In this document: positions 1 through 64,000 of the stretch, in pieces
Layout of the letters: every line of letters starts with the position of its first letter
Numbering within the stretch: the stretch's first letter is position 1
Source: Xestospongia bergquistia
Taxonomy: Eukaryota; Porifera; Demospongiae; Haplosclerida; Petrosiidae
DNA: 64,000 bases
NCBI GenBank assembly: GCA_963965975.1
Contig: OZ014415.1
Coordinates: 7,135,001-7,199,000, forward strand
Direction: 5' to 3'
Notes under the pieces: model-generated
Seen by the model: only the letters and a program-made list of their open reading frames with translations
What the model was told of the DNA's origin: nothing
Database searches by the model: none
Position numbers and translations under genes: made by a program

Positions 1-455
1 ATACTACAGCTAATAATCCAATTATAGCTAACAATATTAGTACAATAGACTATAATTTAGAAGGTTTAAGATATGACTCTTCAATATTACTAATGTTATG
101 AGGGTCATTACCCCACATGTACTGAGAACATATTTCACAATCAGTTGAATAGGTAATATTAGTGTAGTTTTGTCCAAGACAAGGATCACAGGTGCCACAA
201 CGTTTTAGTTAATAAAGCCGGAGTTACAGCTCTGACATTGTGATTTGAGTTGATACATAATATTATCTGATTCATTGGGACTAAATTGCTTTGTAGTATT
301 GGGATTAAATTTAAGACAATTTAGTGGCAAATTTCCTTCCTAATAACCAACTTTTACAATCTCAAATGATTTGTTACAATTTAGACAAGAAGATGCCACC
401 TGGTAATTGTAGATAAGGTATTTAGCTTTGACATCACTAGGACTTTTCATAATCC
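1..455 (-). pseudogene. Class C GPCR fragment, cut by window edge
   Basis: Reading the minus strand, this piece runs from the end of the Venus-flytrap domain through the cysteine-rich domain into TM1, and then leaves the window. Landmarks are the complements of the PQYMWG stretch near 115 and of the DPCLGQNYT stretch near 175. The frame is broken several times: the disulfide-rich part near 200 has lost bases and the GYWDGN region reads through stops. The upstream part of the receptor is missing; at about 440-500 the sequence changes abruptly into a plus-strand alpha-kinase relic. The same junction occurs near 4775 and 34575, so this is one of three copies of a chimeric locus. It is clearly a relic; the exact break at the right edge is uncertain by about 30 bp. 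Confidence 0.85.
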
Positions 456-499
456 CTTCCCTAAAAGGTCTTTAAATATAACTTTATAGATAAATATCC

Positions 500-735
500 C
501 CTGGAATTCAGAACCATCTGTTCAAGACCAAATACAATATGCTTATAAAGGAAAGGGAACTATTCCATCATCTAATGTAGGTCAACCTTGTGTCATCAAA
601 AAATTTAAAGACTCATAAACCTGGGAGAGCTAGAACAGGCTGGATGGGACATTACAATGAGAATTATTTAAAAGCACAAAAATATGCAAATAATTTCGGT
701 GGAGGAAGAGTTGAGGTTATCAATTAACAGTTACT
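500..735 (+). pseudogene. Alpha-kinase N-terminal relic
   Basis: The sequence aligns by eye with the first 75 codons of the alpha-kinase ORF at 19528. It shares the AYKG glycine-rich stretch, the CVIKKFK lysine motif (near 590-605) and the AQEYANNF...GGRVEV segment (near 680-720). It has an in-frame stop just after the lysine motif and an altered TWEG region, and it has no catalytic half. It lies head-to-head with the receptor fragment on its left. It is non-coding now. Confidence 0.8.
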
Positions 736-852
736 ACATAGTAACAACATGTAGTAACTGTTAATTGACTTCACATATTGATTTACAATAGTTTTGGGTT
801 GATAGTAAGTCAGTGTTGGATGTATATCCCATTGATGAAACAACAATAAACT

Positions 853-1168
853 TATAGTGGATTACAGTGAGTTACAGATGGTTACAGTGCATTACAGTGG
901 GTTACAGTGGGTTACATATGCAGTAAGTTACAATGAATTACAGTTGGTCAAAGTAGGTTACATTAGGTCACAGTAGATTACAGTAGATTATAGTGTGTTA
1001 CAGTGGTTACTGTGGGTTACACACGCAGTAAGTTAAAATGCATATTACAGCAATTCAGTGGCTAATATTGGGTTAAAGTTATAGTAGGTTAACATTACTG
1101 TGAACTACATTCAATTACTACAGTAGGTGACTATATTCAATAGGTTATAATGATGGGTTACAATGGGT
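853..1168. repeat. Degenerate 10-bp GGTTACAGTR tandem tract
   Basis: About 30 imperfect copies of GGTTACAGTG/A follow one another, with spacing close to 10 bp and scattered point changes. It lies on the 3' side of the receptor relic at 1555-1990. The same kind of tract lies on the 3' side of most receptor copies in the window, so it belongs to the amplified receptor unit rather than being an independent satellite. Confidence 0.85.
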
Positions 1169-1554
1169 TATTGTAATCTATTGCAACCTATAGTACTTTA
1201 CTCCACTGTAAGTCATTGTAATCTAGTACTGTAACCTTGTATTGTGTATGATATCCCAGTATAAAATTATACTTTCTGCTGGGATACTTCAACATCAATG
1301 ATATGTTTAACTTTATACATGTATACCTGAGAGAACAATAACTTGGTGCAATCACAATTAGTATACATGTATATATATACGTATTATAGGCTGCAACAGA
1401 TTACAGCACCTATATTGTAACCTGTATAGCCCAATTATGATCAAATTGAGAATATATGTATACGTAGAAGTAGTCTGCAAGCTAAGACAACCAATTATTA
1501 TGACAAATATAGCAGCAAACATTTATGAGAAGTCACATAACCCTCATTACTACC
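1169..1554. other. 3' flank of receptor unit, no gene seen
   Basis: AT-rich flank containing the short block (TTCAACAA...GATATGTTTA, ATACATGTATA) that also precedes other receptor 3' ends at 12770-12860 and 41950-42050. I see no open frame or RNA gene. Confidence 0.5.
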
Positions 1555-1990: not shown

Positions 1991-2950
1991 TTAAACACTT
2001 GATGACATAAAAGTGGTTTGATGTTTTATGTATAGATATCTTGTTATGATTTTTTTTAAAAACTACTTTAAATGCTGACTCTGTTCACAGTAAAGATATT
2101 GATTCATTTAACTAATATATTGTTATACAGGTTGTATGATGCAAACTGAAAGCAAGCATAATTCTGTTTTAATTATTATTGGAATGATTGTTTGTCAATA
2201 TTTAACAGACAATTAATGTGTAGGTGTCATGTTGGTTCTTCTCATATGCATTTTTCACACTTGAATCAAAAGTAGCAAAAATAAATGAGATAGTGTAATG
2301 TTTTATATTAGTGACCTGATTTATAATTAAGGGACCATTTTTATCAAAGTATTTATAAACACTTACATGTAAATAATTATGTTTAAAGGATGTTTACTAA
2401 ATTCATATCATTTATTGTTTTACAACTGAGATACAATTTACTGAGCATCTATTGAAAAATGTATAGTTGAATGTGTACACAGTATCTGAATGTTTTTGAG
2501 ATGTATTGAGAAAAATGGTCCCTTTTGGCAAACCAGGTCACATTTATATATTTTGCTATGATTTACTTGAGAAAACTATTTTACATGTTGACTCCAAAAT
2601 GACACCTTTATTTTTGATATAAAATGTTTGTTTACCAATGTGTAAATAGGCATTTAATGCATGTTGTTGTTTCATTATATGTATTTATCATACTTAGCAG
2701 ACACACAGTAGCAGTAGCTATGTCGGGATGAGGGATGGCTCAGATTGTCCATTGAAATGTAGTGGTAGGAAACACAGAGTATATATCTGGTAGAAATCTC
2801 AATCTTCTACTTTGAGCAATGTCTAGATCTGATGAGCCAGTCTGCATCTGGTTGCTAGACAAATAGTTAACCACTTTGTAATCAAAGAAAACTGATGCTT
2901 CTCTTACTCTTATTTTATTATATATTATATCTGTGTTTGATTAATCTCTA
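1991..2950. other. 5' flank and duplicated spacer
   Basis: This contains the receptor 5' flank (AACCACTTTTATG..., TATA-like ATAAAACA near 2015-2022) and, at about 2218-2250, the shared upstream box GTAGGTGTCATGTTGGT followed by TTCTCAT. From about 2145 onward it is nearly identical to 31955-32760; this marks the left edge of the large duplicated block. No protein-coding frame is supported. Confidence 0.6.
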
Positions 2951-3102
2951 ACAGTAGGTTATAGTAGGTTACAGTGAATTACTGTGGGTTACAGTGGGTT
3001 ACAGCTGCAGTGTGATACAGTAGGTTACAATGGTTACAGTAGGATACAGTGGGTTACAATGGGTTATAGCAGGTTACATTAGGAAACAGTATAGATTACT
3101 TT
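2951..3102. repeat. GGTTACAGTR tandem tract
   Basis: About 14 degenerate 10-bp copies on the 3' side of the receptor relic at 3514-4790. A close copy of this tract is at 32759-32915. Confidence 0.8.
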
Positions 3103-3513
3103 GGGTTATTGTAATTTATTGCAACCTATACATTACTTCACAGTAAATCATTATAACTCAGTATTGAGACCCTGTTTGTGCTGTTTCTGAAGACCTGGTA
3201 GAAAAAATACTCTGTTGGGATTCCATAGGTACCTCAACCTTACCTTTACCTTTATACATGTATACCCAAAATAACAATACATTGTTACTATTATGATCAC
3301 AGTGAGACAGGAAACTAAGATGATTACTATAGCAGATATAGCAGCAAACGTTTACTAAAAGCTACACAACCTTAATTAAATTGCAAGGCGTATGTATCAG
3401 TTACAAAAACAAAATTTGATTAGGAAATAAGAATGCAATAAAACAAACTACATTAAGGTTATATCAGCAAAGAAACAAAAATGTAGACATTTACTGAATA
3501 GTGGTAAAAAACA

Positions 3514-4790
3514 TTATTCAGGCTGTGTTGGCAGTTCAGTAGTTGCCATTGTTGTCGTTCCAAGTGACAAAGATGTATTTTTAGCTGCTGCACTTGCACT
3601 TTTTACATTTTGACTTGGCCATACTATCATTATGAAGATTCGTGGACCAAAGAGACATACTAGAACAGCTAAAGCACTTAGTTGAATAGATAATGATATC
3701 ACAGCTGATTGAAACTGGGCATCAGTAGCAAAATAAGTCATGATGAATGCTATCCATATAAGACCCAATGAAAATGTAGAAAATGCCACATACTTAGATT
3801 CATTAAAGTTCTGATGGAATCGAATTGTCAAGACAGCTAGTGCATTACTTGCAATCATTAAAGCAGATAAATACAGCATTTGTATAGACAATAATGCAAT
3901 ATGAGTTGTGGTACATTGGACAGAAAGTACTGGAAAATTGTTAGTGTTCTGTGTATTATTCACTTGATTTTTTGATCACACCAGGATGGACAACAATAGA
4001 GATAGTACTTCCACAACCATTTAAATCCCAACTACTACTAATAGAAATGTAAACAAAATCTGATATATTGGGGAGATAAACTTGGATCTAGAAGTAATGT
4101 TATTTTGTAAATATATACAAGCAATTTGAACCGGTTTAATAAATATAGCACAGACAATTAATGAGAAACAAAACCATGCTCCTATCCTTTCAAGTGTACA
4201 GACAGCTACAGACGGTTTTGTGATAAATATGACTGCTATTAGAAAACAAAGAATTATTCCACTTAGTAGTGGTACCATTTGTTCTCGTCCTGATGACTTT
4301 ATAATTGGTGTGTTCCAAAAATAGATGAAGACTCCACTCACAAATACTACAGTTAATAATCCAATTATTGCTAATAATATTAGTACAATAGACCATAAAT
4401 CAGAAAGTTAAAGATATGACTTTTCACCATTACTACCATTTAGAGCCCCACATGTATTGAGGGCATATTTGACATTTAGTTGAATAGGTAGTATTAGTGT
4501 AGTTTTGTCCAAAACAAGGATCACAAATGCCATGTTTCGGTTAATAAAGCCAGGGTTACAGCTCCGACATTGTGATTTGAATTGATACATAATACTACCT
4601 GATTTATTGAAACTGAATTGTTTTGTAGTATTGGGATTTAAATTTAAGACAATTTAGAGGCAAATGTCCTTCCTAATAACCAACATTTATGATCTCAAAT
4701 GTTTTGCTTCAATTTAGGCATGAAGATGCTATATACCTGGTAATTGTAGATTATGTATTTAGCTTTGACATCACTAGGACTTTTCATAAT
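3514..4790 (-). pseudogene. Class C GPCR relic: 7TM region and CRD
   Basis: The minus strand reads the tail (TELPTQPE stop at 3514), TM7 to TM5 in one frame (3514-3963), a break near 3965-4015, TM4 to TM1 in a second frame (4021-4341), then a damaged cysteine-rich domain (about 4400-4600) and the last part of the flytrap domain. Conserved class C landmarks remain: GPRIFIMIVWPSQNV after TM7, and FCFSLIVCAIFIK in TM3. The receptor stops at about 4775-4790, where the sequence switches to the 5' flank of a plus-strand kinase relic. It is a near twin of 33327-34610, with independent small changes. It cannot make a receptor. Confidence 0.9.
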
Positions 4791-4831
4791 CCCTACTTGA
4801 AAGATCTTTAAATATAACTTATTAGATAATA

Positions 4832-5240
4832 TGCCCTTATATGGTATTAAATAGATATGCATCAACAGCCCCATGTTAAAACAATATACATTCTATGTTT
4901 ACTCATGTAATACTACAGTTGGGGAAGTATATCATAATATGTAGAAATTTTGCAGTGTCAAGCAGAGAATAAGTCATTATATCTGAACCAATTGCAACAC
5001 CAATTCAGAATCATTTGCATTCAAGGCCAATTACAATATACTTATAAAGGAAAGTGGAGCGTTCCATCATCTAGTGGAGGTCAGCTTTGTGTCATCAAAA
5101 CATTTAAAGACTAGTACTGGGAGAGAACAAGCAGGGACACTACAATGAAAATTATTTAAAAGCACAAGAATATGCAAATAACTTATGTGGAGAAGGAGTT
5201 GAGGTTACCAATTTCATTGTTCATATAGTAACAACATGTA
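4832..5240 (+). pseudogene. Alpha-kinase relic with its 5' flank
   Basis: 4832-4978 matches the 150 bp upstream of the kinase ORF at 19528 (GCCCTTATATGGTAT, GTTTACTCA, CAAGCA-AGAATAAGTCATT). The initiator is ATA (4979-4981) instead of ATG. The coding match then continues, with small deletions and an early stop, to the GGRVEV-like segment near 5210. The catalytic half is absent. It is duplicated at 34630-35030 with the same ATA. Confidence 0.8.
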
Positions 5241-5850
5241 GTAACTGCTAATTAGCTTCACATATTCAGTTACAATAGTATTTATCATACTTAGCAGGTA
5301 CATAGTAGCAGTAACTATGTAGGGATGGCCCAGATTGTCCACTGAGAATAATTTGATGTAAAGCTGTGAACAATTATATATACACCATATACATGACTCA
5401 GTAAATGAATAAACTGATACAATATATATCTTAATTACTAAAACAACATACTAGCTGTAACGTCACTAAATTAACTAAAAATAGGGTATGTCCCTAAATT
5501 AATTATCATTACTAAAAATCAGCATAAAAGCAATATTATATGACAATGAACAGTACATGCACACAAAATCTGCTGAATCATTGTATGGATAACAGATGAC
5601 ATCTATCAAAGAAAAAATTCACAAATTACATGGCACAACCCTATGTGAGTTTGTCGAATATATCACTGTAAATTAATGAAGGCAGGCTACATAGGTTACA
5701 GTGAGTTACAATGTGTTATAATAGATTACAGTGAGTTACTACTTTATTCCACTATAAATCAATGTAACCAAAATACTATAGCCCTGTGCTCAGTCTGAAG
5801 ATCCTGTAGAAAACATATACTTACTCCTGGGATTCCTTAAGCAATAATAA
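5241..5850. other. 3' flank of receptor 6154-8839
   Basis: Non-coding flank shared with 35030-35647, 53690-54001 and 60226-60500. It includes a short GGTTACAGTG tract at 5689-5740. No gene seen. Confidence 0.6.
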
Positions 5851-5896
5851 TCTCAGGATTATATGCATTTTGTTACCAATGCATATAATCCTGAGA
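5851..5896. repeat. 19-bp perfect inverted repeat (hairpin)
   Basis: Arms 5851-5869 (TCTCAGGATTATATGCATT) and 5878-5896 are exact reverse complements around an 8-bp loop. It is repeated exactly at 35648-35693, and half-preserved near 60500-60525 and 20248-20258. It lies about 260 bp past the receptor stop, beyond the expected poly(A) site. Confidence 0.85.
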
Positions 5897-6153
5897 TAAC
5901 AAGGCCGTGATGCTGTTATAAGCACAATGAGTATACATGTACAGGTACATGTAGCCAGCTAGCTAAGATGATTCTTATGACAGATATAGCAGCAAATGCT
6001 TATTAAAAATCACGCAACTCTTAAATTATAAGTCATATGTATCAGCTTAAAAAACATGATTTAATTAAGGGTGGAACAAACAAACTTGATTAAGATTAGA
6101 TTATGTCAGCAAAGTAACAAAACATACATTTATTGAATAGCAGTAAAGAAACA

Positions 6154-8839
6154 TTATTCTGGCTTTGTTGGCAGATCAGTAGTTGTCATTGTTGTCTTTG
6201 CAAGTGACAAAGAACCACTTTTAGCTGCTCTACTTGCACTTTTTACATTTTGACTTGGCCACACTATCATTATGAAGACTCGTGGACAAAACAGACACAC
6301 AAGGACAGCTAAAGCACTTAGTTGAATAGCTAATGATATCACAGCTGATTGAAACTGGGCATCAGTAGCAAAATATGTTATGATGAATGCTATCCATACA
6401 AGACCCATTGCAAATGTGGAAAATGCCACGTACTTAGATTCATTGAAGTTCTGTGGAAATCGTATTGTCAAGATGGCTAGTGCATTACTTGCAATCATTA
6501 GAACAGATAAGTACAGCATTTGTATAGCCAATAATGCAATATGAGGTGTGGTACATTGGAGAGCAAGTATTGGAAAGTCATTTGTATTCTGTGTGTCATT
6601 CGCTTGATATTTGAGTACATCAGGATGACGGACAACTAAAGATATTAGTTCTAGGGCCATTAGAACTCCTATCAATATAAATGTAAACACAATCTGATGC
6701 ATTGGTGAGATAAACTTGGGTCTAGTACTAATTTTTTTCTGTAAAAAGATTCGAGCAATCCGTACTAATTTAATGAATACAGCACAGACAATTAATGAAA
6801 AACAAAACCATGCTCCTATCCTTTGAAGAGTACATACAACCACAGAGGGTTTTGGAATAAATACAACTGTTATTAGAAAACAAAGAGTTATTCCACTTAG
6901 TAGCAGTATCATTTGTTCTCGTCCTGATGACTTTACAATTGGTGTGTTCCAGAAATATATGAAGACTCCACTCACAAATACTACAGCTAATAATCCAATT
7001 ATAGTTAACAATATTAGTACAATAGACCATCCATCAGAAGGTTTAAGATATGACTCTTTGATATCTACACACCCATTACTACCATTAAGAGGGTCATTAC
7101 CCCACATATATTGAGGACACATTTGACATTCTGTTGAAGAAGAAAAGTTAGTATAACGTTGTCCAAGACAAGGGTCACAAATATCACAACAAGTCACAAC
7201 TTTTCGCTTAAAAAGACCAGGCTTACAACCACGACACTGTGATTTGAATTGATACACAATATTACCTGATTCATCAAGACCAAATTGTTTTGTAGTATTG
7301 GGATTAAATTTAAGATGATCATGAGGTAAATTTCCATCCCAATACCCAACATTTACAATCTCATATGATTTGCTACAATTTGGACAAGAAGATACTACTT
7401 GATAATTGTAGATAACGTATTTAGCTTTGACATTGCCATGCTCATCAAAACTTACTTCATTGCCAGTTGGGCTGGTAAAGTTGAGTTTTTTAATATACTC
7501 CAAAAGATTTGAGCCATTTAATGTTCGATTTTGTCCAAGACATGTTTGATTACCAGGGTACCACACTAATGGTTGATTACAGTTATCATTTAAGAAGTTA
7601 TTGACTGCATGAGCTACACTATAAACAGCATCAATAGCAGGAACATCATAAGAATCTTGTTGATAATTATAACTAGAATCATTTACAAAGCTTATATTGC
7701 TACAGTTAACGCTAACATTGCAGCCATAATAGTTTTCATAAAACTCAGTAAACCATGGATTACGTAAGTTAGTTGCTGGAGTTAATTGCGAGTAGTAGTA
7801 ATCAAACTCAGGGAATGTTTTGGAGTATGGCCTCGGGCCTCGTGCCCCATTTTCCTATCGTAATATCCTTGTAATTTACATCAAGCTCTTGAGCCCAAGT
7901 ATCACTAGCAATCCACAGGAACCGCTTATTTGAACGACCAGAAGAGTACAATATTTGCACTTCTGTCAACAGCTTATCAACATGATTAGGCCAAGCAAAC
8001 AACACGACAACGTTAGCAGAGGAATTCGTTAGGTTATTAGTCAGAAGGACATAGTCAGTCTTATCATCAATACCTTTAATAAGATCAATGCACACACCTT
8101 TAGTATCTGCTAAATCATGAAATTCTTTAATACCAGGTTGGCCATACAAACCGTTTGAATAAATAGTTGAGACATGATCCCAACCAAAATATAGTATTAA
8201 GTCAATCATTGCTTGAGCTTGCTCACTGTCTGGAGGTACAGTACGATAAAAGTAAGTATAAAGATCACGATCACTCAAAAGAGGTGATGTTGATGCAAAA
8301 CTAACTTGAGGCATGTTGAATAAACGAAAGAAACTAGCTAGTGGAATAGACACAGAACTATATATCGCACCAATAACAGCCACAATAGGATGCCTAGTTG
8401 AAAAATTATTTGACTGGAATTCTTGGCAACTTTCAAGTTCTAAACGACCACTTGAAAGCACAAGGTCAACACTTTCATCTAGAGCTATATTCTCACTTAT
8501 ACAAGTGTCTCTGATATCATAACCAAGTGTTATATTAGGTAGTATGTTAGGGTCATTGTTGACGAGATCTATTGCAAACAAAACGGCCTCCAAATGTTCC
8601 AAAGACTTGTCTCTAAAAATCTCACCACATCTTCCACTACCATCACTTTTATGTACTCTTAGTAACCCACCTAAAATGATGTCTTTATCTTTAACATCTT
8701 TTATACCACTTATTCTAGTACCTCCATCAGCTGCTGTAAGAACATTTTCAGACTTAGTGTCATAATGATACTGAGCTACACATTTGTTAAGCAAAAGAAA
8801 CTGGAAGAATACAACAAGAAAGACAAGAGTCCACTTCAT
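6154..8839 (-). pseudogene. Full-length class C GPCR with one 7-bp frameshift
   Basis: A complete receptor of about 892 codons, read from ATG at 8839 (MKWTLVFL signal peptide; the preceding in-frame codons begin with GTG only). VFT domain about residues 45-515, CRD about 525-590, seven helices about 597-855, and a tail ending DLPTKPE. The only lesion I find is at 7829-7842, where CGAGGCC is tandemly duplicated (minus strand), shifting the frame after KWGTRP in the middle of the VFT domain. Apart from this it closely matches the intact receptor 35951-38629, of which it is the block-duplication partner. The 7-bp event could be a recent null allele or an assembly error. If translated as is, it would give a truncated soluble VFT fragment of about 340 residues. 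Confidence 0.9.
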
Positions 8840-8877
8840 TTTAAACACTTTGTTCACTTGTTGTCGTAAAAGTAATT

Positions 8878-9140
8878 AGAAGATGGTGTGATGTTTGCTT
8901 TAAATACTAAATTAAATGATATATCGAAATGATAGCATATATTTAGTGTAGGTGTCATGTTGGTATTTCTCATGTGTAGTTTATCATATCTGTACATTCG
9001 TTGTTGTAAAATTTACAAATGAACAGATATGATAAGCACTTATATATGAAAAATACCAACATGACTTTTACTAATTATATGCTATCATTTTGTTATCAAA
9101 ATTTAATTTAGTATTTAAACAAACATCACACCATCTTCTA
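8878..9140. repeat. Long imperfect inverted repeat upstream of receptor
   Basis: The left arm (about 8878-8997) and right arm (about 9017-9140) are reverse complements with a few mismatches. The outer ends carry AGAAGATGGTGTGATGTTT and its complement; the inner part carries GTCATGTTGGTATTTCTCAT. A further direct copy of the outer motif follows at 9157-9175. The left arm is the receptor's own 5' flank, so the structure looks like an inverted duplication of the promoter-proximal region. The same structure lies at 38667-38931. Confidence 0.8.
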
Positions 9141-9287
9141 ATTACTTTAAAAGTAGTTAGAAGATGGTGTGATGTTTCGTGCTAATATATCGTATGATAT
9201 ATTAGCATGAAATATATGTAATATATGTAATATGTCTTATATATTTTAGTATAATGTGGATACATCTATTGATGTTGTTATTATTAC

Positions 9288-9953
9288 CGTATAGCGGGTA
9301 TTATTGGCGGCTGAAATATTTGACGGTTTGCCATCAAATTAAGCAAAATTAAAATTTGGCGAAATTTAATTTTGGCGATTTATTAAAATATTTGTTGTAA
9401 TTAAAGGTGGGTGGTATTAATTAACGGTTGGTGGTACTGCGTGTACTATATAACGCCACATGAACTCTCGTGAAAGTAGGATACTTACGAGATTGCTAGT
9501 TGTGTGCGAGGTCACCATATATATATACATAAAAGAGTTTGGAGACCTGTACTTGGCGAAGAGTTGAAATGTCGAATTGAACAAGGTAATGTAGAAGATC
9601 GATATGCAGTTATATTTTCCAATCTGTGCTCGTTGTTCTGATGTATATTCGTTGTACTGACCTCTGCGACTGTTTGCTACTCCATTTGCACTTGCATTGT
9701 CTTTATAAGTTTCCTTTAAGCATATAACATCTCTCTTGTTGGCTTCTTTTAGTTCTTTTCGTGATAAGGATGTGCACTGTTCTTCATTAGGCAGGACAGT
9801 TCTCTTCGTGAAATACCTAAGTAACGCCATTTACGTAGCGGCTAGCAGATGAGGATCACGTGCAGTGAGCGTGAAAAATTATTGGATTTGACGATTTGTT
9901 GCAGACCGTCAATACGCCAAATTAAATTCGCCGCCAATAATACTCGCTATACG
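9288..9953. mobile_element. 666-bp TIR insertion, non-autonomous DNA transposon
   Basis: The ends CGTATAGCGGGTATTATTGG and the complement of CCAATAATACTCGCTATACG form inverted repeats of about 24 bp with one mismatch. The duplicated locus near 39090 lacks this segment entirely, so it is an insertion made after the block duplication. TATA at each terminus would fit a TA target, but the target site is not clean. A minus-strand frame inside (9417-9830, 137 codons) contains MALLRYFTKR near its start and later RRGQYNEYTSEQRAQIGKY, a basic helix-turn-helix-like piece as found at the N-terminus of some DDE transposases. I read it as a transposase remnant, not a gene. Confidence 0.8.
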
Positions 9954-12344: not shown

Positions 12345-12630
12345 TTAGAGTGGATTATGTATACATGCAGTACATTACAGTGGGTTACCATAGGTTTGTA
12401 ACTTTATAGTGGGTTATAGAGTGGGTTATGTGTACAGTGAGTCACAGTAGGTTACATTAGGTTAGTGTGAGCTACAGTATGGGTATGGTAGGTTACAGTA
12501 GGTTAAAGTAGATTACAGTGAGTTTAAGTAGGTTAGGATATATGCAATGGGTTAAAGTGAGTTACAGTATGTTACAGTGTGTTACAATCAGTTACATATG
12601 TAGTAAGCTATATAGTTGGTTACAATGAGT
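12345..12630. repeat. GGTTACAGTR tandem tract
   Basis: About 25 degenerate 10-bp copies on the 3' side of the receptor at 13051. The paired tract in the duplicated block is 41565-41840, which has lost or gained a few units. Confidence 0.85.
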
Positions 12631-13050: not shown

Positions 13051-15714
13051 TTATTTAGGCTGTGTTGGCAATTCAGAAGTTGTTGTTTTTGCAAGCGACA
13101 AAGATGTACTTCTAGCTGCTGTACTTGCACTTTTTACATTTTGACTTGGCCACACTATCATTATAAAGACTCGTGGACCAAACAGACACACAAGAACAGC
13201 TGAAGCACTTAATTGAATGGCTAATGAGATCACAGCTGGTTGAAACTGAGCATCAGTAGCAAAATACGTTATGATAAATGCTATCCATATAAGACCCAGT
13301 GAAAATGTAGAAAATGCTACATATTTTGATTCATTAAAGTTCTGAGGAAATTGAATTGTAAAGATGGCTAGTCCATTACTTGCAATCATTAGAGCAGATA
13401 AGTACAGCATTTGTATAGCCAGTACTTCAATATGAGGTGTGGTACATTGAAGAGCAAGTGTTGGAAAGTCATCTGTATCCTGTGTATTATTAACTTGACT
13501 TTTCACCACACCAGGATGAATAACTATTAGAGATATTAGTTCCACAGCCATTTGAACTCCTACTAATATAAATGTAAGCAAAATCTGATGCATTGGTGAG
13601 ATAAACTTGGGTCTAGAAGTGATATTTTTCTGTAAAAATATACGAGCAATTCGAACAAGTTTAATAAACACAGCACAGACAATTAATGAAAAACAAAACC
13701 ATGCTCCTAATCTTTGAAGAGTACAAACAGCCAGAGAGGGTTTTGGGATAAATACAACTGTTATTAGAAAACAAAGAGTTATTCCACTTAGAAGAAGTAC
13801 CATTTGTTCTCGTCCTGATGACTTTACAATTGGTGTGTTCCAGAAATATATGAAGACTCCACTCACAAATACTATAACTAACAATATTAGTAATAATATA
13901 GCTAACAATATTAGTACAATAGACCATCCATCAGAAGGTTTAAGATATGACTCTCCAATATCTACACAACTTGTACTGCCATTAAGAGGGTTGTTGCCCC
14001 ACATGTATTGAGGACAGGTTTGACATTCTGTTGAAGTAGAGCTAACGTAATTTTGTCCAAGACAAGGATCACAGGTAACACAACAAGATGATGCCACATC
14101 ACGTTTGATTAATCCAGGATTACAAACTTGACATTGAGAGATGACTTTATAAATAATATTACCTGATTTATCAAGACCAAACTGTTGAGTGACACTTTTA
14201 TAAAAATGAAGACGTTTTCCTGATGCACTTCCATCCCAGTAACCAACATTTATTATGTCAAAATTATTACTACAATTTACACATGATGTTACCTGGTAGT
14301 TATGAATTCCATATTTGGCTTTAACATTGCCCTCTTTATCAAAATAAATTCGATTTCCAGTAGGACTTGAAAAATTAAGATTTTTGATGTATTGTAATAG
14401 ATTTTCACCATTTAACTCTAATGTTTGTCCAAGACATGTTTGGTTCTGGGGATACCATACTAACGGTTGTTGGCAGTTATCATTTAAAAAGTTATTGATT
14501 GCATGTGCTACACTATATACAGCATCAATAACAAGTGGATCAAAAAAATCTTGTTGATAATTGGGATCATCTGCAATACTTCTATTAGTACAATTAATGT
14601 TAATATTACACTTATAATAGCGCTCATAAAATTCAGTAAACCAAGGATTGCAAAAGTTAGTTGCTGGAGTAAGTTGTGAGTACTAGTCATCAAAAGAATG
14701 TACTTTCTCAGCATATGGTGCTATCCCCCATTTTCCTACAGTAATATCTGAAAAATCTGTAATCTCTGACCAAGCATTACTTGCAATCCACAAGAATCGC
14801 CTTTTTGAAATACCAGAGGTGTACAACCTTTGAACTTCTTCTAAGACACTTTTAACATGGTTAATAGAGGCAAACAAAACAACAACATTAGCAGAAGAGT
14901 TCATTAGTTTATTGGCCAATGCTGTGTAGTTAGATAATGAATAACTATCCTCAATCCCTTCGTTAATATCAATGCATAAACCATTACTTTGAGCTAGACG
15001 ATGAAACTCATCAATACCAGGTCGACCATACAAGTTATTTGAATATATAGTTGAGACATGATCCCAACCAAAATATATTATTAAGTCAATCATTCCTTGA
15101 GCTTGTTGATCATCAGGAGGAATTGTACGATAAAAGTATGTGTAGCGATCACGATTGCTTAAAATTGGAGATGTTGATAAGAAACTGATTTGAGGCATGT
15201 TGAATACACGAAAGAAGCTAGCAACTGGAATAGACACATAACTAACTATGGCACCAATAACAGCCACTACTGGAAGTTTAGTTGAACTCAAATCTGAGTC
15301 AAGACAACTTTCAAGTTCTAAACGACCACTTGAAAGCACAAGGTCAACACTTTCATCAAGAGCAATATTCTCACTTATACAAGTGTCTCTGATATCATAA
15401 CCAAGTGTTATATTAGGTAAAATCTGAGGGTCATTGTTGACAAGATCTATTGCAAAAAACATGGCTTCCATATTTTCTACACTCTTGTGTAGTAAAATCT
15501 TACCACATTTTCCACCACTTGAATTAGCTTCATGTGAATGTACTCGTAGTAACCCACCTAAAATGATGTCTTTATCTTTGTGATCTTGTATACCACTTAC
15601 TCTAGTACCTCCATCAGCTTTGAGAACATATTCAGGAAGAATGCCATAATGATACTGACCTGAACACTCAGTAAGCAAAAGAAAGTGGCAGAACAAAGCA
15701 AGAGTCCACTTCAT
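13051..15714 (-). pseudogene. Full-length class C GPCR with one in-frame TAG
   Basis: A receptor frame of 887 codons from ATG at 15714 (MKWTLALF signal peptide; more upstream codons are reached only from GTG) to the stop at 13051, with the whole family architecture. Translating every segment between 14098 and 14682, I find it open and in one frame. The single defect is TAG at 14683-14685, at the position of a Tyr in paralogues (HSFDDY in the receptor at 47744). It falls in the VFT domain near residue 344. TM1 has a small expansion: LLAILLLILLVIVFVSG instead of LLAIIGLLAVVFVSG. The tail ends SELPTQPK. Either a very young pseudogene or a null allele; readthrough is possible but nothing supports it. 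Confidence 0.9.
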
Positions 15715-23179: not shown

Positions 23180-23218
23180 GTTAAATCTTTTCTCTTTATG
23201 ACATAAAAGTGGTTTAGT

Positions 23219-51747: not shown

Positions 51748-51920
51748 ATACTTGTAGTATTAAGTCAACCATTGCTCATCCTGTTGATTATCTGGAGGTA
51801 CAGTACAATAAAAGTAAGTGTAGCAATCATGATTACTTAAAAGAGGAGATGTCGATGAGTAACTGATTTTAAGCACCTTGAACATGCAAAATAAGCTAGC
51901 AACTGGAATAGATATAGACC
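51748..51920 (-). pseudogene. VFT-domain relic of a receptor
   Basis: The minus strand matches the SF-SSTSPLLS...YFYRTVPPD...QAMIDLI segment and the preceding S-I-S-I-PVA-F stretch, with several changes (TTTAAGCACC, GCAAAATAAG). It is about 170 bp with no continuation on either side. Confidence 0.75.
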
Positions 51921-52773
51921 TGATGATTATACGTAACTATGATTATATATAACGTGCATCTTTTTGCTGAAATAAGGTGATATAATTTCAATTATCTTTA
52001 TCAATATATGTACATAGCAGTAATATTATGATGATACTGAACAAATAACAATATTGCTTTTTGAGTTACCGCTGATAAAGTATCATATCCATGACTATAC
52101 ATAAAAACTATATAATATATCTACTGATTCATCATTGCTAACATATAAAAGTAAATAAACAAATAAAATATTGCAAATCATTTATTAGAGTTTAAATAAC
52201 TCAAATAGTTAGGACAAAGAATGTAGTTGCTAGGCAACAGCTTTTAATTTGTCAAAGGAAATACTTCTCTGACTATCACTCTATTACATGACTGTTCTTG
52301 ATTAACCAGGATATTACAAATTATGATGTAATGAATATATGTGTTATAAACAATACAATTATAACTAATTATGAGAAGTCAAGTTATAACAGTCACTGTA
52401 ATGATATCCACTTTAGTTCAATCCAGACCTATACACAGATTTGAGCTAGATCAATTAAGGTTATCATCTCAGGTTCACATTTTTATGAGGTAACTATAAT
52501 AATATATTGTGTGAGTGAATGCATACATTTGGTACATCATAGCATATACTATTCAGTCCTCACTGCAAATAGTGGTGTGTCATTTAACATATCAATTTGT
52601 TATTTCAGACTCAAATCACTCATTAGTTATGTAGTAGTGAATAAGATACCTATAAACAGATACAGATCTACAATATGCATACATATAATTGTTTCCTCAT
52701 ACTTGTTCCATAAGCTATCTAGACTAATGACCCTAATTGTATACAACACAGTACAATTAAGTATCCATAATAT
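51921..52773. other. Spacer, no gene seen
   Basis: About 51985-52420 resembles 17980-18470. A 89-codon plus frame at 52511 is rich in Ile/Ser/Tyr and looks like chance. Confidence 0.4.
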
Positions 52774-54001: not shown

Positions 54002-56934
54002 CATAGATAGTATAGACTACGTAACCAGGATTGGAAACGGATCACGTGATCCCATAGAACTGAATGAACATTTGAAAACGCACTCCGTGTCCAAAAAAAT
54101 CAATTAATTTTTATTACCTTACATTGTGACCTAGACACACTCTTACCTCTATTGTATTAATCTATAAAGACATTAAGGTGATTTTTATTTATCGACACAT
54201 TGTCTATATATTTTTCTTTATATTCTATTATTAAAAATAGTCAATAATACAGAGATTCATTTTTAAATTACTTATTTTACGATGAAAATGGCACTAAAAA
54301 TACTTTTGTCGCTCTTTCTTCTTATAGCAATGTTACTAATAAAAGATTTAGGACTAATTATTTAGAACAAATAAGAACACATTGGTTTAGACTGTTTTTA
54401 TGTTAGTAAAGTCGCGCTATTCTAATGGAAAACACTAAAACAACATATGATATAGGTCCACTTTTTGGACTATAGCCATTTTTTAAAGCTATGTAGACAT
54501 AAATTACAACTTTTCATCTAAAGACAAAAGATTTTTGTGTTGGTTTAGCTTGTTATTATTTACTTTGGCAATCTCCTATCATAGTTATACAAGATACAAA
54601 ATATGCGTACATATTCAGTGCAATAATTAAGTATAGTGCACTTAAATAGTTATTAATAATTAATTTCCTTTCAGATGGGTATGAGAAAAGTCAGACTGTA
54701 CTATAGAAAGCACAGGTCAATACCCAGGTCTTTAATTGTATCTCTTCCAAAGTCAATTTATATTCATGCTCCTTTTCCTTCATTGCCTGTGCTAAGAGAG
54801 AGATTCCATTCCTTGGGATTATTACCTAAAGGTTCATTGAATATAGCCATGTTATCACACCATTTTATTCACCTAATGTTATACTATAGCATGGCTAGAC
54901 ATTGATGATGACATATCAAACACTATCAATTTCCGGAAACTTTTCAATGCTGAACGCAACATCTTTATATCACTCACAATCTATAATGGCAGTACATGGA
55001 AGCTCACTTTACATAACACCCCTGTCAAATGTTCATATCTGAATCATATCCCTGCCCAAATAAAGTCTTTATCTGATGTTTTATCAATCATCGATGCAGT
55101 AGATACCAATCATATTTGTTTTGGCAATTCAGAAGTTACATTTTGTGATGTGCAAACATTATCAGGTTAGTACTGCCTGTAAAATAATTCTACGTAAATG
55201 ATTGTTTTTAGATGCCTATGTACTTGATTCCACTACATTAGAAATAAGCACAGTACGTCACCAAAATTGTGAATTACTAATTGATCGTTCTGTAAACCGA
55301 TGCAACTACTGTACCAAATATCGTGACGTTTTACGAAAAACCATTTATCAACATAGTAATCCTATTAGTAATCATGTAACATCTCCAAGAAGTCATGCAA
55401 ATTATAGATACTTATTACCAAATCAATTAAAGCAAAGATTGCACAATATGCACAATACTGTCCATACCATCAAAGCTAAATTGACTCGTTTACTGATGAT
55501 TAAGCAGTCTCTTGTTTATAATGGAGTCGAACTTGATGTAGTTAATCACAATGATTTAGTTAATGTAATGTCAAGTTATAACAAACAAATACATGATACT
55601 CATGCAAAGGACTCCTTTCAAAGAATATTTTGGGAACAACAACAAAAAGCAGCATCCTATTCAGACCCAAAGTCAATGAAGTGGCACCCACTAATCATTA
55701 AATGGTGTCTTTACTTACACCATATGTCAAGCGGAGCATATGAAACTTTTAGGACATCTGGAATATTAAGGCTCCTTTCGCAACGCACATTAAGAGATTA
55801 TACTCATTACATCAAAGCATCCTGTAGGTTTTCAAATGAAGTTGACAATGATTTACTTCGAGCTGCAGATTACTATAACCTTGAGGAGTGGGAAAAATGT
55901 GTGGGTATATTAATAGATGAAATGCATATCAAAGAAGACTTAGTGTATGATAAACATACTGGAGCTTTAATTGGTTTTATATCTCTTGGTGATGTTAATG
56001 ATCAATTATTGAAGGTAATTAGAATAGCTGTGTCTTATTTGTAATATTTATAACATTAACTATAAGTATAATATTATGTATGATTATGTAGTTTGAAAGG
56101 TCATTAGATGAGTCTAATGTCAGCCAGTCTCCACCTTTGGCAAAACTCCATGTATGTATTTATGGTGAGAGGCCTTTTCACATCTCTCCAGTACCCTTAT
56201 GTTCAACATGCCTGTAAGGATTTAACTGGTAAGTCAGTTATACAAAAATTTAAACAATAATTAACCGATGAAATTCTAATGTTTGCAAGGTGAGCTACTC
56301 TTTCAACCATTTTGGGAAGCTGTATTCAGATTAGAAAGATGTGATTTTAAAGTCCTGTCAGCCACTTTTGATGGAGCATCTATAAATCGTAAACTAATTA
56401 AATTACACGAATTAGGCTCTAAAGACATTTTGTACAAAGTTCAGAATCCTTATTCTGCAGACAGTAGGTATCTCTATTTCATTTCTGATCCACCACATTT
56501 ACTAAAGACGACTAGAAACTGTTTGTTTAATAGTTCTAGCCATTTATGGGTAAGGATAATTTGGTATGAAATTTGAATACTTACGAAAAAAACTTAGTGT
56601 AAAGGAAAGAGTATCTTGTTGAGACATGTAGAGTCACTTTATCTACAAAACAGTGGTGCACAACATGATTTACCAGGACTGTCGCTTGTCCCTAAACTAA
56701 AATATGAACACATATACCTAAACAATTTCTCTAAGATGAGAGTGGATTTAGCTGCTCAGGTATAACATGTTTAAAAAGCATGCATCCATGTACATGTTAT
56801 GCATAGGTACTAAGTGAGTCTGTTAGCAAAGCAATCTATTTAACTGGAGGACCACAGGCAACTGAAACAGCCTTGTTTTGTGATATGTTTGATAAATTTT
56901 TTGACTGCTTGAATGTTCGCAATTATGATAGTGG

Positions 56935-58132
56935 AAAGTTTCAGAGAAAGTGTTTCAGAGATCCTTATTGCTCTGCTACTGACTTCAGACTTGAAGTATA
57001 TTTAACATTTTACATTAAAGAAAGTTTATATTTAACAGTGGTTAGAAGAAGTTTTCATAAAATATCTTGAAGAATGGGAAAAATCAGTGAAAGAAAGATC
57101 TGGTTTTACTAATGAAGAAAAGAAGAGGATGCTACTAAGTTCTGAGACAAGAACTGGACTAATGATAACAGGTATGTCATTACTGTATGTATCATATTTT
57201 CATGAAATTGAAAATATTCAATGCACCTGCAGTAAAAGAAAGTTTCAGAGAAAGTGTTTCAGAGATCCTTATCGCTCTGCTACTGACTTCAGACTTGAAG
57301 CATATTTAACATTTTACATTAAAGAAAGTTTATATTTAACAGTGGTTAGAAGAAGTTTTCATAAAATATCTTGAAGAATGGGAAAAATCAGTGAAAGAAA
57401 GATCTGGTTTTACTAATGAAGAAAAGAAGAGGATGCTACTAAGTTCTGAGACAAGAACTGGACTAATGATAACAGGTATGTCATTACTGTATGTATCATA
57501 TTTTCATGAAATTGAAAATATTCAATGCACCTGCAGTAAAAGAAAGTTTCAGAGAAAGTGTTTCAGAGATCCTTATCGCTCTGCTACTGACTTCAGACTT
57601 GAAGTATATTTAACATTTTGTAACAAGTGTAAACCATTGTGCTATATATTACTGTAACGATTGTATTACAACAAACCTTGCTGTTGAAACCCATTGTGTT
57701 ATACAATACTATATTAATGTGTGAAATATTGTGTAATCTCTAGAACTATCTAGAATGTTCTGTATGATTTTGTATTTAAGTGGATATCACTTGTCGTTGA
57801 ATTATTATATATATCTTTTATAAGTTTGTTTTTCATAAGTATTACTGTTTTGAGTTATAACAAAAGATAGTCTGCAAAACTCAGCTCTCAAGCGGGTTAC
57901 AATTTTACATTAAAGAAAGTTTATATTTAACAGTGGTTAGAAGAAGTTTTCATAAAATATCTTGAAGAATGGGAAAAATCAGTGAAAGAAAGATCTGGTT
58001 TTACTAATGAAGAAAAGAAGAGGATGCTACTAAGTTCTGAGACAAGAACTGGACTAATGATAACAGGTATGTCATTACTGTATGTATCATATTTTCATGA
58101 AATTGAAAATATTCAATGCACCTGCAGTAAAA
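56935..58132. repeat. 304-bp tandem triplication inside the transposase
   Basis: Unit copies at 56935-57238 and 57239-57542, and a third at 57543-57618 plus 57906-58132, split by the solo LTR. Each unit holds the end of one exon (KFQRKCFRDPY...FRLE), an intron, the next exon (WLEEVFIKYLEEWEKSVKE...) and the last intron. Copies differ at only a few bases (for example Cys/Arg codon TGC/CGC near 56971 and 57275), so the event is recent. GAAAGTTTCAG at the seam suggests slippage or unequal exchange. Confidence 0.95.
57619..57901. mobile_element. 283-bp solo LTR
   Basis: Starts TGTAAC and ends GTTACA, flanked by a 4-bp duplication ATTT (57615-57618 and 57902-57905). The two other copies of the host repeat show the empty site (TTTAACATTTTACATTAAAG). 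Internal features fit an LTR: TATATAT near 57805 and a CT/GT-rich end. Orientation and family are not known, and no internal retroelement coding remains. Confidence 0.8.
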
Positions 58133-60225: not shown

Positions 60226-60781
60226 AGATGACATCTATCAAAGGAAAAATTCACAAATTACATGGCACAACCCTATGCGAGTTTGTTGAATATATCACTG
60301 TAAATTAATGAAGGCATAGTTAGGCTACATAGGTTACAGTGAGTTACAATGTGTTATAGTAGATTACAGTGAGTTATTACTTTATTCCACTATAAATCAA
60401 TGTAACCAAAATACTATAGCTCTGTGCTCAGTCTGAAGACCCTGTAGAAAGTATATACTTACTGCTGGGATTCCTTAAGCAATAATAACGATATGTTTAC
60501 CATAATGCATATAATTCTGAGATAACAAGGCCATGATGCTATTATAAACACATGAATATACATGTACAAGTACATGTAGCCAGATAGCTAAGATGATTCT
60601 TATAACATATATAGCAGCAATTTTTTATCAAAAATCACACAACTATATAAATTACAAGTCATATCTATATATCAGCTTATAAAACATAATTCAATTAAGG
60701 GAGTAACAAAACAAACTACAATGAGGTTATGTCAGCAAAGAAACAAAACATAAACATTTATTGAGTAGTGGTAAAGAAACA
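60226..60781. other. 3' flank of receptor 60782-63481
   Basis: The receptor flank continues here after the transposon, with a GGTTACAGTG tract at about 60320-60380 and the right half of the 5851-type hairpin near 60505-60525. No AATAAA at the usual place (TTTATCAAAAATC near 60623). Confidence 0.65.
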
Positions 60782-63481
60782 TTATTCAGGCTGTGCTGGC
60801 AGTTCGGAAGCTGTTGTCTTTGCAAGTGACAAAGATGTACTTTTAGCTGCTGTACTTGCACTTTTGACATTTTGACTTGGCCACACTATCATTATAAAGA
60901 CTCGTGGACAAAACAGACATACTAGAACAGCTAAAGCACTTAGTTGAATAGCTAATGATATCACAGCTGCTTGAAACTGGGCATCAGTAGCAAAATATGT
61001 TATGATGAATGCTATCCATACAAGACCCATTGCAAATGTGGAAAACGCCACGTACTTAGATTCATTGAAGTTCTGAGGAAATCGAATTGTTAAGATGGCT
61101 AGTGCATTACTTGCAATCATTAGAGCAGATAAATACAGCATTTGTATAGCCAATAATGCAATATGAGGTGTGGTACATTGGAGAACAAGTATTGGAAAGT
61201 CATTAGTGTTCTGAGTATCATTCACTTGATTTTTAGTCACACCAGGATGGACAACAATTAGAGATATTACTTCCAAAACCATTATAGCTCCTACCAATAA
61301 AAATGTAAACAAAATCTGATGTATTGGTGCAATAAACATGGGTCTAGATGTAATGTCTTTCTGTAAAAATATTCGAGCAATCCGTACTAATTTAATGAAT
61401 ACAGCACAGACAATTAGTGAAAAACAAAACCATGCTCCTATCCTTTGAAGAGTACAGACAGTCACAGATGGTTTTGGAATAAATACAACTGTTATAAGAA
61501 AACAAAGAGTTATTCCACTTAGTAGTAGTATCATTTGTTCTCGTCCTGATGACTTTACAATTGGTGTGTTCCAGAAATATATGAACACTCCACTCACAAA
61601 TACTACAGCTAACAATCCAATTATAGTTAACAATATTAGCACAATAGACCATCCATCAGAAGGTTTGAGATATGATTCTTTGATATCTACACATCCATGA
61701 CTACCATTAAGAGGGTCATTACCCCACATGTATTGAGGACACATTTGACATTCTGTTGAAGAGGTAGTGTTAGTGTAGCTTTGTCCTAGACAAGGATCAC
61801 AAGTACCACAACAAGAAGATATCACTTCACGTTTAATATAACCAGTGTTACAGCTCTGACACTGTGATTTCAGTTGATAAATAATATTACCTGATTCATC
61901 AAGACCAAATTGCTTTGTAGTATTGAGATTAAATTTAAGACGATTTAGTGAGAAACTTCCATCCCAATATCCAACATTTACAATCTTAAATGATTTGCTA
62001 CAATTTTGACATGAAGATACTACTTGATAATTGTAGATATTGTATTTAGGTTTTACACCGCCATACTCATCAAAATATATTTGATTTTTAGTTGGGCTGG
62101 TAAAGTTGACATTCTTTATATACTCCAAAAGATTTGAGCCATTTAATGTTCTATTTTGTCCAAGACATGTTTGATTTTCAGGGTACCACACTAATGGTTG
62201 CTTGCAGTTATCATTTAAAAAATTATTTACTGCATGAGCTACACTATAAACAGCATCGATTGCAGCAGCATCATAAGAATCCTGGTGAAAAGTATATCTA
62301 GAATCATTTACAATACTTGTATTGCTACAGTTAACACCAATTTTGCAGTTGTAATAGTGCTCATAAAATTCACAAAACCATGGATTACGTGCATAAGTTG
62401 CTGGAATTAGTTGTGAATAGTAGTTAACAAAAGAGGACATTGTATCAGAATAAGGTGCTGTGCCCCATTTTCCTATTGTAATGTCCTTGTATTTGGTATC
62501 AAGCTCTTGAGACCAACTGTCACTGGCAATCCACAGGAACTGCCTTTTAGAAGTACCAGAAGAGTACAATGTTTGAAGTTCTGTCAATAGCAGTTCAACA
62601 TGATGAGCTGAGGCAAACAATACAACAACATTAGCAGTGGAATTTAGTAGATTCTTGGCCAGGAGGACATAGTCAGTACTATCATCAATACCTTTAGTAT
62701 AATCAATGCACACACTTTTAGCTTTTGCTAGATCATGAAACTCATCAATACCAGGTCGGCCATACAAATTAGTTGAATAAATAGTTGAGACATGATCCCA
62801 ACTAAAGTATACTATTAAGTCAATCATTGCTTGAGCTTGTTCACTATCTGGAGGTACAGTACGATAGAAGTAAGTGTAAAGATCACGATCACGCAAAAGA
62901 GGAGATGTTGATCCAAAACTGACTTGAGGTATGTTGAATACGCGAAAGAAACTAGCGAGTGGAATAGATATCGAACTATATACTGCTCCAATAACAGCCA
63001 CTACTGGAAGTCTAGCTGAATCGTTATTTTTCAACTCGGAATCATAGCAACTTTCAAGTTCTAAACGACCACTTGAAAACACAAGGTCAACACTTTCATC
63101 TAGAGCTATATTCTCACTTATACAAGTATCTCTGATATCGTACCCAAGTGTTATATTAGGTAAAACGTGAGGATCACTGTTAACAAGATCGATAGCAAAC
63201 AAAACAGCCTCTAAATTTTCCAAAGTCTTGTCTGAAAAAATCTCGCCACATTTTCCTTTACCATCACTTTTATGTACTCTTAGTAACCCACCTAAAATGA
63301 TGTCTTTATCTTCACGATCTTGTATTCCACTTATTCTAGTACCTCCATCATGCACAGCTTTGAGAACAAGTTCAGAAGAAGTGTCATTACAATACTGAAC
63401 TGTACACTTGGTCAGTAAAAGCAATTGGAAGGACACAGCATAGGAGACAAGAGTCCACATCATGTTACACAATCTGTTCAT
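60782..63481 (-). CDS. Class C GPCR, intact, intronless
   Basis: 899 residues from the first ATG at 63481 (MNRLCNMMWTLVSYAVSFQL); ATG at 63463 or 63460 would give a signal peptide more like the siblings (MMWTLV...). The VFT domain, CRD (CQSCNTG, CGTCDPCLG, CPQYMWG), seven helices and a tail ending SELPAQPE are all open. Pocket: Ser pair (YSSISI), Asp of PPDS, Tyr of LYG and Asp321 (ASDSW) kept; Asn at the Arg78-like position (ENLEAV). Its TM4-TM5 segment equals that of 35951-38629, and TM6 (FAMGLVWIAF) equals 6154-8839, so it has exchanged sequence with both. Its 3' flank carries the P-like transposon. Confidence 0.95.
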   Translation of the reverse strand: MNRLCNMMWTLVSYAVSFQLLLLTKCTVQYCNDTSSELVLKAVHDGGTRISGIQDREDKDIILGGLLRVHKSDGKGKCGEIFSDKTLENLEAVLFAIDLVNSDPHVLPNITLGYDIRDTCISENIALDESVDLVFSSGRLELESCYDSELKNNDSARLPVVAVIGAVYSSISIPLASFFRVFNIPQVSFGSTSPLLRDRDLYTYFYRTVPPDSEQAQAMIDLIVYFSWDHVSTIYSTNLYGRPGIDEFHDLAKAKSVCIDYTKGIDDSTDYVLLAKNLLNSTANVVVLFASAHHVELLLTELQTLYSSGTSKRQFLWIASDSWSQELDTKYKDITIGKWGTAPYSDTMSSFVNYYSQLIPATYARNPWFCEFYEHYYNCKIGVNCSNTSIVNDSRYTFHQDSYDAAAIDAVYSVAHAVNNFLNDNCKQPLVWYPENQTCLGQNRTLNGSNLLEYIKNVNFTSPTKNQIYFDEYGGVKPKYNIYNYQVVSSCQNCSKSFKIVNVGYWDGSFSLNRLKFNLNTTKQFGLDESGNIIYQLKSQCQSCNTGYIKREVISSCCGTCDPCLGQSYTNTTSSTECQMCPQYMWGNDPLNGSHGCVDIKESYLKPSDGWSIVLILLTIIGLLAVVFVSGVFIYFWNTPIVKSSGREQMILLLSGITLCFLITVVFIPKPSVTVCTLQRIGAWFCFSLIVCAVFIKLVRIARIFLQKDITSRPMFIAPIHQILFTFLLVGAIMVLEVISLIVVHPGVTKNQVNDTQNTNDFPILVLQCTTPHIALLAIQMLYLSALMIASNALAILTIRFPQNFNESKYVAFSTFAMGLVWIAFIITYFATDAQFQAAVISLAIQLSALAVLVCLFCPRVFIMIVWPSQNVKSASTAAKSTSLSLAKTTASELPAQPE

Positions 63482-63522
63482 TTGATGACATAAAAGCAAG
63501 TGAGATGGTTTGATGTTTCATA

Positions 63523-63530
63523 CTTATATA
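63523..63530 (-). promoter_or_regulatory. TATA box of receptor 60782-63481
   Basis: TATATAAG on the coding strand, 42-49 bp before the ATG at 63481. A weak version of the shared upstream box is near 63630-63665. Confidence 0.5.
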
Positions 63531-63718
63531 CCTTGTTATGATTTACTTACACCCTGACTCTAAAAGAATAGCATATTGTGTTGATATGAAACATTTAATA
63601 TGTTTACAAATGTGTAACATGGGTGCACTTAGTGTAAGTGATGTTAGTGTTTCTCATGTGCATTTATCACTCTTAAACTCACACTTATCTTTACAATTCT
63701 TCAAAATACACACAATCA

Positions 63719-63850
63719 TTACTACCAGTAAGAGAATCATTACCCCACATGTATTGAGGACACATTTCTCACCCATTTGAAGAGGTAACGTTAGTGTAGT
63801 TTTGTCCAAGATATGAGTCACAGGTACCACGGCAAAAACATACTTCATAA
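63719..63850 (-). pseudogene. CRD relic of another receptor
   Basis: The minus strand reads the TYSC-like end, DPCLGQNYT-like (GTCCAAGATATGAGTC) and PQYMWGN (complement near 63737-63755), then stops. It has a frameshift (CTCACCCATTTGAAG) and no neighbours. It marks a further receptor copy lost to the right. Confidence 0.8.
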
Positions 63851-64000
63851 GTAACCTTTATTTTCTAATTAACTTTTATTAGATCTGGATTGATATACAA
63901 CAATTACTAGGACATACTACCAAATCTTATCCTCTTATTAGCATAGTTGTATTTCTTACAATATTAAAGTTAATTGACACTATAATATGCAGGTGTACAA
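63851..64000. other. No feature seen
   Basis: AT-rich. The last bases (ACACTATAATATGCAGGTGTAC) resemble 47497-47517, a flank of the divergent receptor type. Confidence 0.4.

Follow-up and report, generated by a model that had tools for sequence, protein, structure and literature searches.

The window, a stretch of 64,000 nucleotides (C5:7135001-7199000) from a genome of 146.46 Mb in 21 contigs, holds eight class C receptors of full length, each in a single exon, along with nine receptor fragments; every one of the eight is encoded on the minus strand. We built this inventory from a stop-to-stop ORF list, Pfam scans and tblastn searches with 30 long ORFs. Four of the full-length copies are clean. 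The gene at 20513-23179 (−; 888 aa) is the 97% twin of C5:7104505, produced by a block duplication, and the gene at 47744-50470 (−; 908 aa, within P0001) has mGlu2 as its top solved match (E 2e-138). The other two, at 35951-38629 (−; 892 aa) and 60782-63481 (−; 899 aa), are mosaics: the VFT of the first is nearest to 7121281 and that of the second to 7035689, while in TM3-7 each is nearest to the other. A fifth copy, at 28049-30712 (−), has TTG in place of the ATG of its 98% relative. The remaining three are pseudogenes with one lesion each, namely a frameshift caused by a 7-bp tandem duplication in the VFT (6154-8839, −), an in-frame TAG in the VFT (13051-15714, −), and a TAG at codon 51, at or just ahead of the VFT start (43960-46641, −). 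Counting the TTG, none of the four lesions is due to homopolymer slippage. Six of the eight copies consist of a single open frame of 842-919 aa, and the other two of two frames that join at the lesion. Pfam detected the VFT and 7tm_3 in the frames of the window, so they did not arise by chance.

Five of the nine fragments exceed 400 bp. The fragment at 1-435 (−) is part of a 3′ piece (VFT end, CRD and part of the 7TM) that extends beyond the window, and that at 1444-2019 (−) is a decayed fusion of an N-terminus to the CRD region. Those at 3517-4772 and 33321-34667 (both −) comprise CRD and 7TM with several lesions, and that at 42381-43526 (−) retains the VFT end, the CRD and most of the 7TM. 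The other four, of 93-153 bp, are two short C-terminal pieces (17749-17871 and 24934-25026, −), a piece of VFT (51775-51927, −) and a piece of CRD (63697-63843, −). The initial annotation had counted eight full-length and at least five truncated minus-strand one-exon class C receptors in the 64 kb, and had described the eight as four clean copies, one lacking its ATG and three with a single lesion; ORFs, Pfam and tblastn bore out the first count, and the second held copy by copy. Between receptors, an ORF at 55202-56041 (+) gave a weak transposase match (TNP-like RNase H, Pfam 1.9e-6). A near-perfect 304-bp tandem repeat (2.3 copies, 99% matches) occupies 56934-57619, and a 37-bp/223-bp tandem array lies at 31423-32024. 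An Rfam search returned no matches.

On domain content and similarity, the array proteins are of the mGluR type, with a VFT, a nine-cysteine CRD and a 7TM, the relatives compared being PDB chains. Their top solved relatives in the PDB are mGlu2 (E 2e-138) and mGlu7 (E 7e-132). In the six single-frame window copies, the VFT (PF01094) scored 232-257 bits against a cut-off of 25.4, and the class C 7TM (PF00003) 167-188 bits against a cut-off of 33.5. The Pfam NCD3G model was reported in three of the ten frames scanned, at 21-24 bits and below its cut-off of 38.9; nine cysteine columns of the CRD are kept in 29-30 of 30 ORFs. The cysteine equivalent to mGlu2 C121, which we take to form the inter-protomer bond, is present in 30/30 ORFs. 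Signal peptides were assessed by eye. Structure prediction for six window proteins gave a mean pLDDT of 35 and a pTM of 0.26.

The host is likely to be a sponge, as the initial annotation had supposed. The mitochondrial genome, contig C21 (18,997 bp), encodes a COX1 that uses TGA for Trp and carries atp9, and its tRNAs S, D and C follow cox1. We take the ORF after these tRNAs to be nad1, and we regard both the presence of atp9 in an animal mtDNA and the gene order cox1-S-D-C-(nad1) as demosponge-like. Nuclear copies of mitochondrial cox1 and atp9 were also observed at C6:3154917-3200446.

We examined 264 kb around the window and found by tblastn that receptor matches span 242 kb of contig C5 (6,971,613-7,213,715). 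This array contains 34 full-length copies and 29 further fragment matches, counted separately, of which adjacent ones may be pieces of a single old copy. Twenty-six of the full-length copies are intact, one is open but without much of its CRD, and seven carry lesions (6988695, 7041243, 7131151 and four in the window). One copy counted as intact, C5:7205184-7208396, has about 200 extra N-terminal residues that by eye resemble an in-frame scrambled receptor fragment; the open ORF at C5:7076190-7078826 has lost much of its CRD through an in-frame deletion. By strand, 28 full-length copies are minus and six plus, the latter all at 7.041-7.087 Mb. The single orientation described in the initial annotation therefore applies within the window and fails across the array, where six full-length copies, all beyond the window, are on the opposite strand. 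Its ratio of intact to broken copies is likewise correct for the window (4/8 clean), whereas 26/34 are intact in the array as a whole.

The array contains several duplicated blocks. An 11.4-kb block at 19404-30751, with two receptors and an alpha-kinase ORF, is a 97% duplicate of C5:7103393-7114718, 51 kb away; a 7.2-kb block at 2135-9289 is a 94.6% duplicate of 31960-39090; and a 3.6-kb block is duplicated at 98.4%. The alpha-kinase ORF (PF02816; the window copy was scanned) occurs in both 11.4-kb blocks, at 19522-20271 (+) in the window and at C5:7103571-7104260 (+). Many copies share flanks over hundreds of bases to kilobases, and we rejected retroposition of each copy as the main route. 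Two genes on contig C4 are also one-exon, so the one-exon state need not have arisen copy by copy. The first, L022 (C4:7.34 Mb), is a dispersed gene that belongs to the array clade. The second, L021 (C4:0.22 Mb), lies nearer to the vertebrate mGluRs, with 42% VFT identity to mGlu2 and mGlu3 as its best match (E 3e-165), and is the sole other such mGluR-like match besides L022 among the matches listed.

Eight receptors or fragments are followed, about 410-515 bp past the 3′ end, by a minisatellite with a decamer unit (TTACAGTGGG and its variants). In the window it occurs at 852-1021, 2951-3091, 12433-12596, 27494-27539, 32760-32892, 35488-35536, 41623-41802 and 60333-60376, and it turns up again in the array at 7.035 and 7.09-7.20 Mb. 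A genome search that may skip repeats gave three matches to a perfect doubled decamer, of which two fall in the array. Possibly, the minisatellite is a recombination-prone 3′ marker of the unit.

We followed the ligand pocket across the 26 intact copies. Residues are numbered by mGlu2, in which we take S145, T168, D188, Y216, D295, K377 and R57 to be the equivalents of mGlu1 Ser165, Thr188, Asp208, Tyr236, Asp318, Lys409 and Arg78. As excerpted, PMC2680970 assigns the first five of these mGlu1 residues to binding of the alpha-amino-acid groups and Lys409 to the side chain, and the cited part of PMC6307864 adds Arg78 as a glutamate side-chain residue. The anchors of the alpha-amino acid, S145, S167, D188 and Y216, are present in 26/26 intact copies; position 168 is S or T in 25/26, and D295 is kept in 22 copies and lost in four. 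At the glutamate side-chain site, R57 is found in two copies and K377 in four, and the two residues occur together in none of the 26. Outside the array, L021 has R61 and K377 and, although it is likewise without R57, is a better candidate for a general mGluR.

We defined eight side-chain positions, mGlu2 57, 61, 143, 144, 146, 271, 272 and 377; only 57 and 377 are taken from papers, and the other six are our own assignment from mGluR structures. These positions occur in 18 distinct combinations among the 26 intact copies. Their posterior mean omega was 0.64, compared with 0.28 in the rest of the VFT (27 genes; Mann-Whitney p = 2e-4). The excess persisted on resampling, with p = 0.00045 for random sites and 0 of 20,000 neighbor-matched draws as high, and it was repeated when 24 intact genes were analyzed with each VFT half on its own tree (p = 1e-4). 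Taken as a group, the backbone contacts were indistinguishable from the remaining VFT positions (p = 0.74), and two positions counted among them, A166 and T168, are variable (omega percentiles 97 and 86). The conserved side of the pocket rests on S145, S167, D188, Y216 and, to a lesser degree, D295; S145 is invariant and lies next to the variable positions 143, 144 and 146. Fast sites outside the listed pocket include mGlu2 55, 122, 125, 300 and 326. The amino-acid-sensing repertoire proposed in the initial annotation is in part supported, in that kept anchors and a varied distal pocket are the pattern that such a repertoire would be expected to show.

Overall, purifying selection acts on the array, the selectivity pocket changes faster, and support for omega above 1 is weak. 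Under M0, omega was 0.22 for the VFT and 0.23 for both remaining partitions, namely the CRD together with the beginning of the TM, and the TM remainder, with the branch scale barely moving in one run. These values lie far from the dN/dS near 1 that the initial annotation had named as refuting its proposal. It had also proposed a comparison of VFT with 7TM, which revealed hardly any difference in omega; the contrast between the two is one of synonymous depth. We therefore rejected a selective difference as the cause of the higher identity of the 7TM, since omega is alike and dS differs. For the VFT, M8 was favored over M7 (p = 0.008) and weakly so over M8a (p = 0.04), the class at omega 1.4 holding 3.6% of sites; when the VFT halves were analyzed separately, M8 against M8a gave p = 0.02 and 0.19. 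The trees of the two halves reject each other by the AU test, and recombination within the VFT can thus inflate the test for omega above 1.

Three other accounts of the pocket pattern were weighed against these results. In the first, the array is a matter of dosage, with numerous copies of a single glutamate receptor maintained for the sake of expression level or division between tissues, all with the same ligand. Purifying selection would suit such an array, as would the homogenized junction described below and the mGluR glutamate signaling proposed in Ephydatia in the excerpted text of PMC11883242. We consider it unlikely, however, given that no intact copy combines R57 with K377, that the positions forming 18 distal pockets are among the fast sites of the VFT, and that L021, which is closer to mGlu2, is a better general mGluR candidate even without R57. 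Slightly less probable is relaxed selection, by which the array would be a decaying side branch whose pocket varies since nothing is bound any more. Seven broken copies among 34, the 29 fragment matches and the weakness of the signal for positive selection could be read in this way, whereas an omega of 0.22, 26 of 34 copies open, the invariance of S145 (amid variable neighbors), D188 and Y216, and the cysteine equivalent to C121 in every ORF all argue against it. We gave about the same low weight to the idea that the receptors bind peptides, partner proteins, self/non-self cues or other molecules that are not amino acids, the VFT anchors being structural. The fast sites beyond the listed pocket and the four intact copies without D295 speak for this idea; against it, the anchors are the very residues reported to bind the alpha-amino-acid groups (PMC2680970, as excerpted), and the variable positions are the neighboring side-chain ones.

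To describe how copies are related along their length, we compared trees and synonymous divergence between domains. For 27 main-clade ORFs, the VFT data rejected the TM tree by 3170 lnL units, and the TM data rejected the VFT tree by 674 lnL units. Median dS was 1.12 in the VFT, 0.52 in the CRD and 0.39 in the TM (378 pairs, 28 sequences including L022). In windows, pS was 0.36-0.64 in the VFT, fell to 0.14-0.19 at mGlu2 548-634 and was 0.30-0.52 beyond. Distances at this junction were uncorrelated with those of the VFT (rho 0.07) or of TM3-7 (rho 0.02). At a threshold of 0.03, which was our choice, 8/27 genes (7021385, 7030450, 7041387, 7083931, 7094434, 7121281, 7170954 and 7195785) were clear mosaics, in that their nearest relative switches between the VFT and TM3-7. 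Sliding identity switches sharply, for example from 95-99% to 80-90% between 7030450 and 7094434. Exchange also reaches the promoter region. The copy at 28049-30712 resembles 7112022 in its CDS and 3′ flank (98%) and 7121281 in its 5′ flank (92%), and the blocks that lie 51 kb apart part at the start codon of this same copy, which has lost its ATG. It is possible that the mosaics are assembly chimeras.

Several controls bear on the junction. Across eight young pairs, pooled pS was 0.086 in the VFT, 0.076 at the junction and 0.082 in the TM; the junction value comprises 38 changes, and single pairs scatter from 0.016 to 0.189. Against the divergent clade, pS was mildly lower at CRD-TM1 (0.45-0.57) than in the VFT (0.63-0.91), and was 0.85 at TM2. 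Against L021, where divergence is near saturation, pS did not dip at the junction; against the dispersed L022, the low-pS junction persisted (0.35, 0.20, 0.14). That the low synonymous divergence from CRD to TM2 mainly reflects a constrained nucleic-acid element or a slow spot is the least probable of the alternatives, for which the weaker dip against L022 and the mildly lower CRD-TM1 values against the divergent clade would count, and against which stand the missing dips at TM2 in that clade and in L021, the evenness of the young pairs, the conflicting topologies on either side and the sharp identity switches. Intrinsic synonymous constraint was mostly rejected by the divergent-clade, L021 and young-pair controls. 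Recombination is the best reading of the homogenized CRD-TM2 junction, to which constraint may have contributed a small share. The birth and death of copies described in the initial annotation is borne out by the block duplications, the seven lesioned full-length copies and the fragment matches, and on its own it misses the strong recombination between copies; as read from its members, blocks are duplicated, copies decay and modules are shuffled as the array evolves.

With a probability of about 0.62, we interpret the array as a one-exon mGluR-type family, arranged in tandem, whose host is probably a demosponge and whose ligands are most likely amino acids or closely related compounds, glutamate excepted, with VFTs and 7TMs shuffled among its members. 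In this scheme, the receptors would sit at the cell surface as dimers, consistent with the conserved C121-equivalent cysteine, and each VFT would close on the alpha-amino and carboxyl groups of an amino acid. The distal pocket would set which side chain fits, the 26 intact copies with their 18 distal pockets would make up the repertoire, and signaling would proceed through G proteins. Recombination, as read from the sequences, joins differing VFTs to differing 7TMs across the homogenized CRD-TM1-TM2 junction. A further reading, tentative and with the odds somewhat against it, is that of a germline combinatorial receptor system in a neuron-free animal, in which a library of amino-acid-sensing VFTs is recombined onto fewer 7TM/tail modules and other promoters through a CRD-TM1-TM2 exchange site homogenized by conversion. 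If this were true, the array would be a "molecular nose" built of glutamate-receptor parts. Sponges are expected to lack neurons, yet they respond to amino acids and coordinate behavior. Should the receptors discriminate amino acids, chemosensory repertoires like those of V2R/OlfC, which keep the anchor, diversify the selectivity pocket and turn over by birth and death within clusters, would have evolved from mGluR-type genes on a separate occasion and outside any nervous system. A natural experiment is also at hand in the array, in which VFT and 7TM modules are already exchanged among genes and which would let ligand and coupling be assigned to modules.

V2R genes have several exons and are expressed in neurons, and a sponge host would be an animal without neurons. 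The array is alike in pattern to OlfC/V2R and is not a member. Theirs is a vertebrate lineage, and each array gene is a single uninterrupted reading frame that extends from the start codon into the C-tail. The excerpted text of PMC6588630 describes, for fish OlfC, some gene conversion and proximal binding sites as opposed to variable distal selectivity sites, and the array is similarly a clustered, expanded class C family with a conserved proximal and a variable distal pocket. Among mGluRs, the available portion of PMC6307864 reports class IV members without the glutamate side-chain residues (mGlu1 Arg78 and Lys409), predicts that no more than a minority of non-bilaterian mGluRs bind glutamate, and gives eleven as the largest non-bilaterian count per species among those seen. 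The array receptors resemble these in having a VFT, a nine-cysteine CRD and a 7TM, in keeping the backbone residues and in losing the Arg78 and Lys409 equivalents; they differ from the mGluRs of that portion in forming 34 full-length one-exon copies in one array, with a varied distal pocket and VFT/7TM mosaics. In Amphimedon, PMC4302439, as excerpted, lists 33 class C GPCRs, a minority of which (7) are mGluR homologs, in contrast to the 26 intact mGluR-type genes of this single array. The nearest precedents are the sponge mGABA arrays and fish OlfC/V2R; among the open-licence PMC literature listed, we found no account of mGluR-type genes arrayed in such numbers and showing VFT/7TM mosaics.

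In GABA-B-type receptors, the VFT is joined to the 7TM without a CRD. Ephydatia muelleri has over 120 mGABA receptors in all, over 50 of them in one cluster (PMC7385117, as excerpted), a large tandem expansion of sponge class C GPCRs like the one described here. Unlike those GABA-B-type receptors, the array receptors are of the mGluR type, with a CRD, and are encoded by one-exon genes. We also observed more clusters of class C 7TM matches elsewhere in the genome, at C3:1165180-1219072, C3:66478-80434, C2:6.42-6.82 Mb, C8:5.90-6.02 Mb and C9:1.17-1.20 Mb, which may be counterparts of the Ephydatia mGABA receptors. The C3 clusters have long open frames of about 750-830 aa, and two of their genes (L025 and L026) align poorly with mGlu2; the clusters on C2, C8 and C9 consist of short-piece matches and have a multi-exon look.
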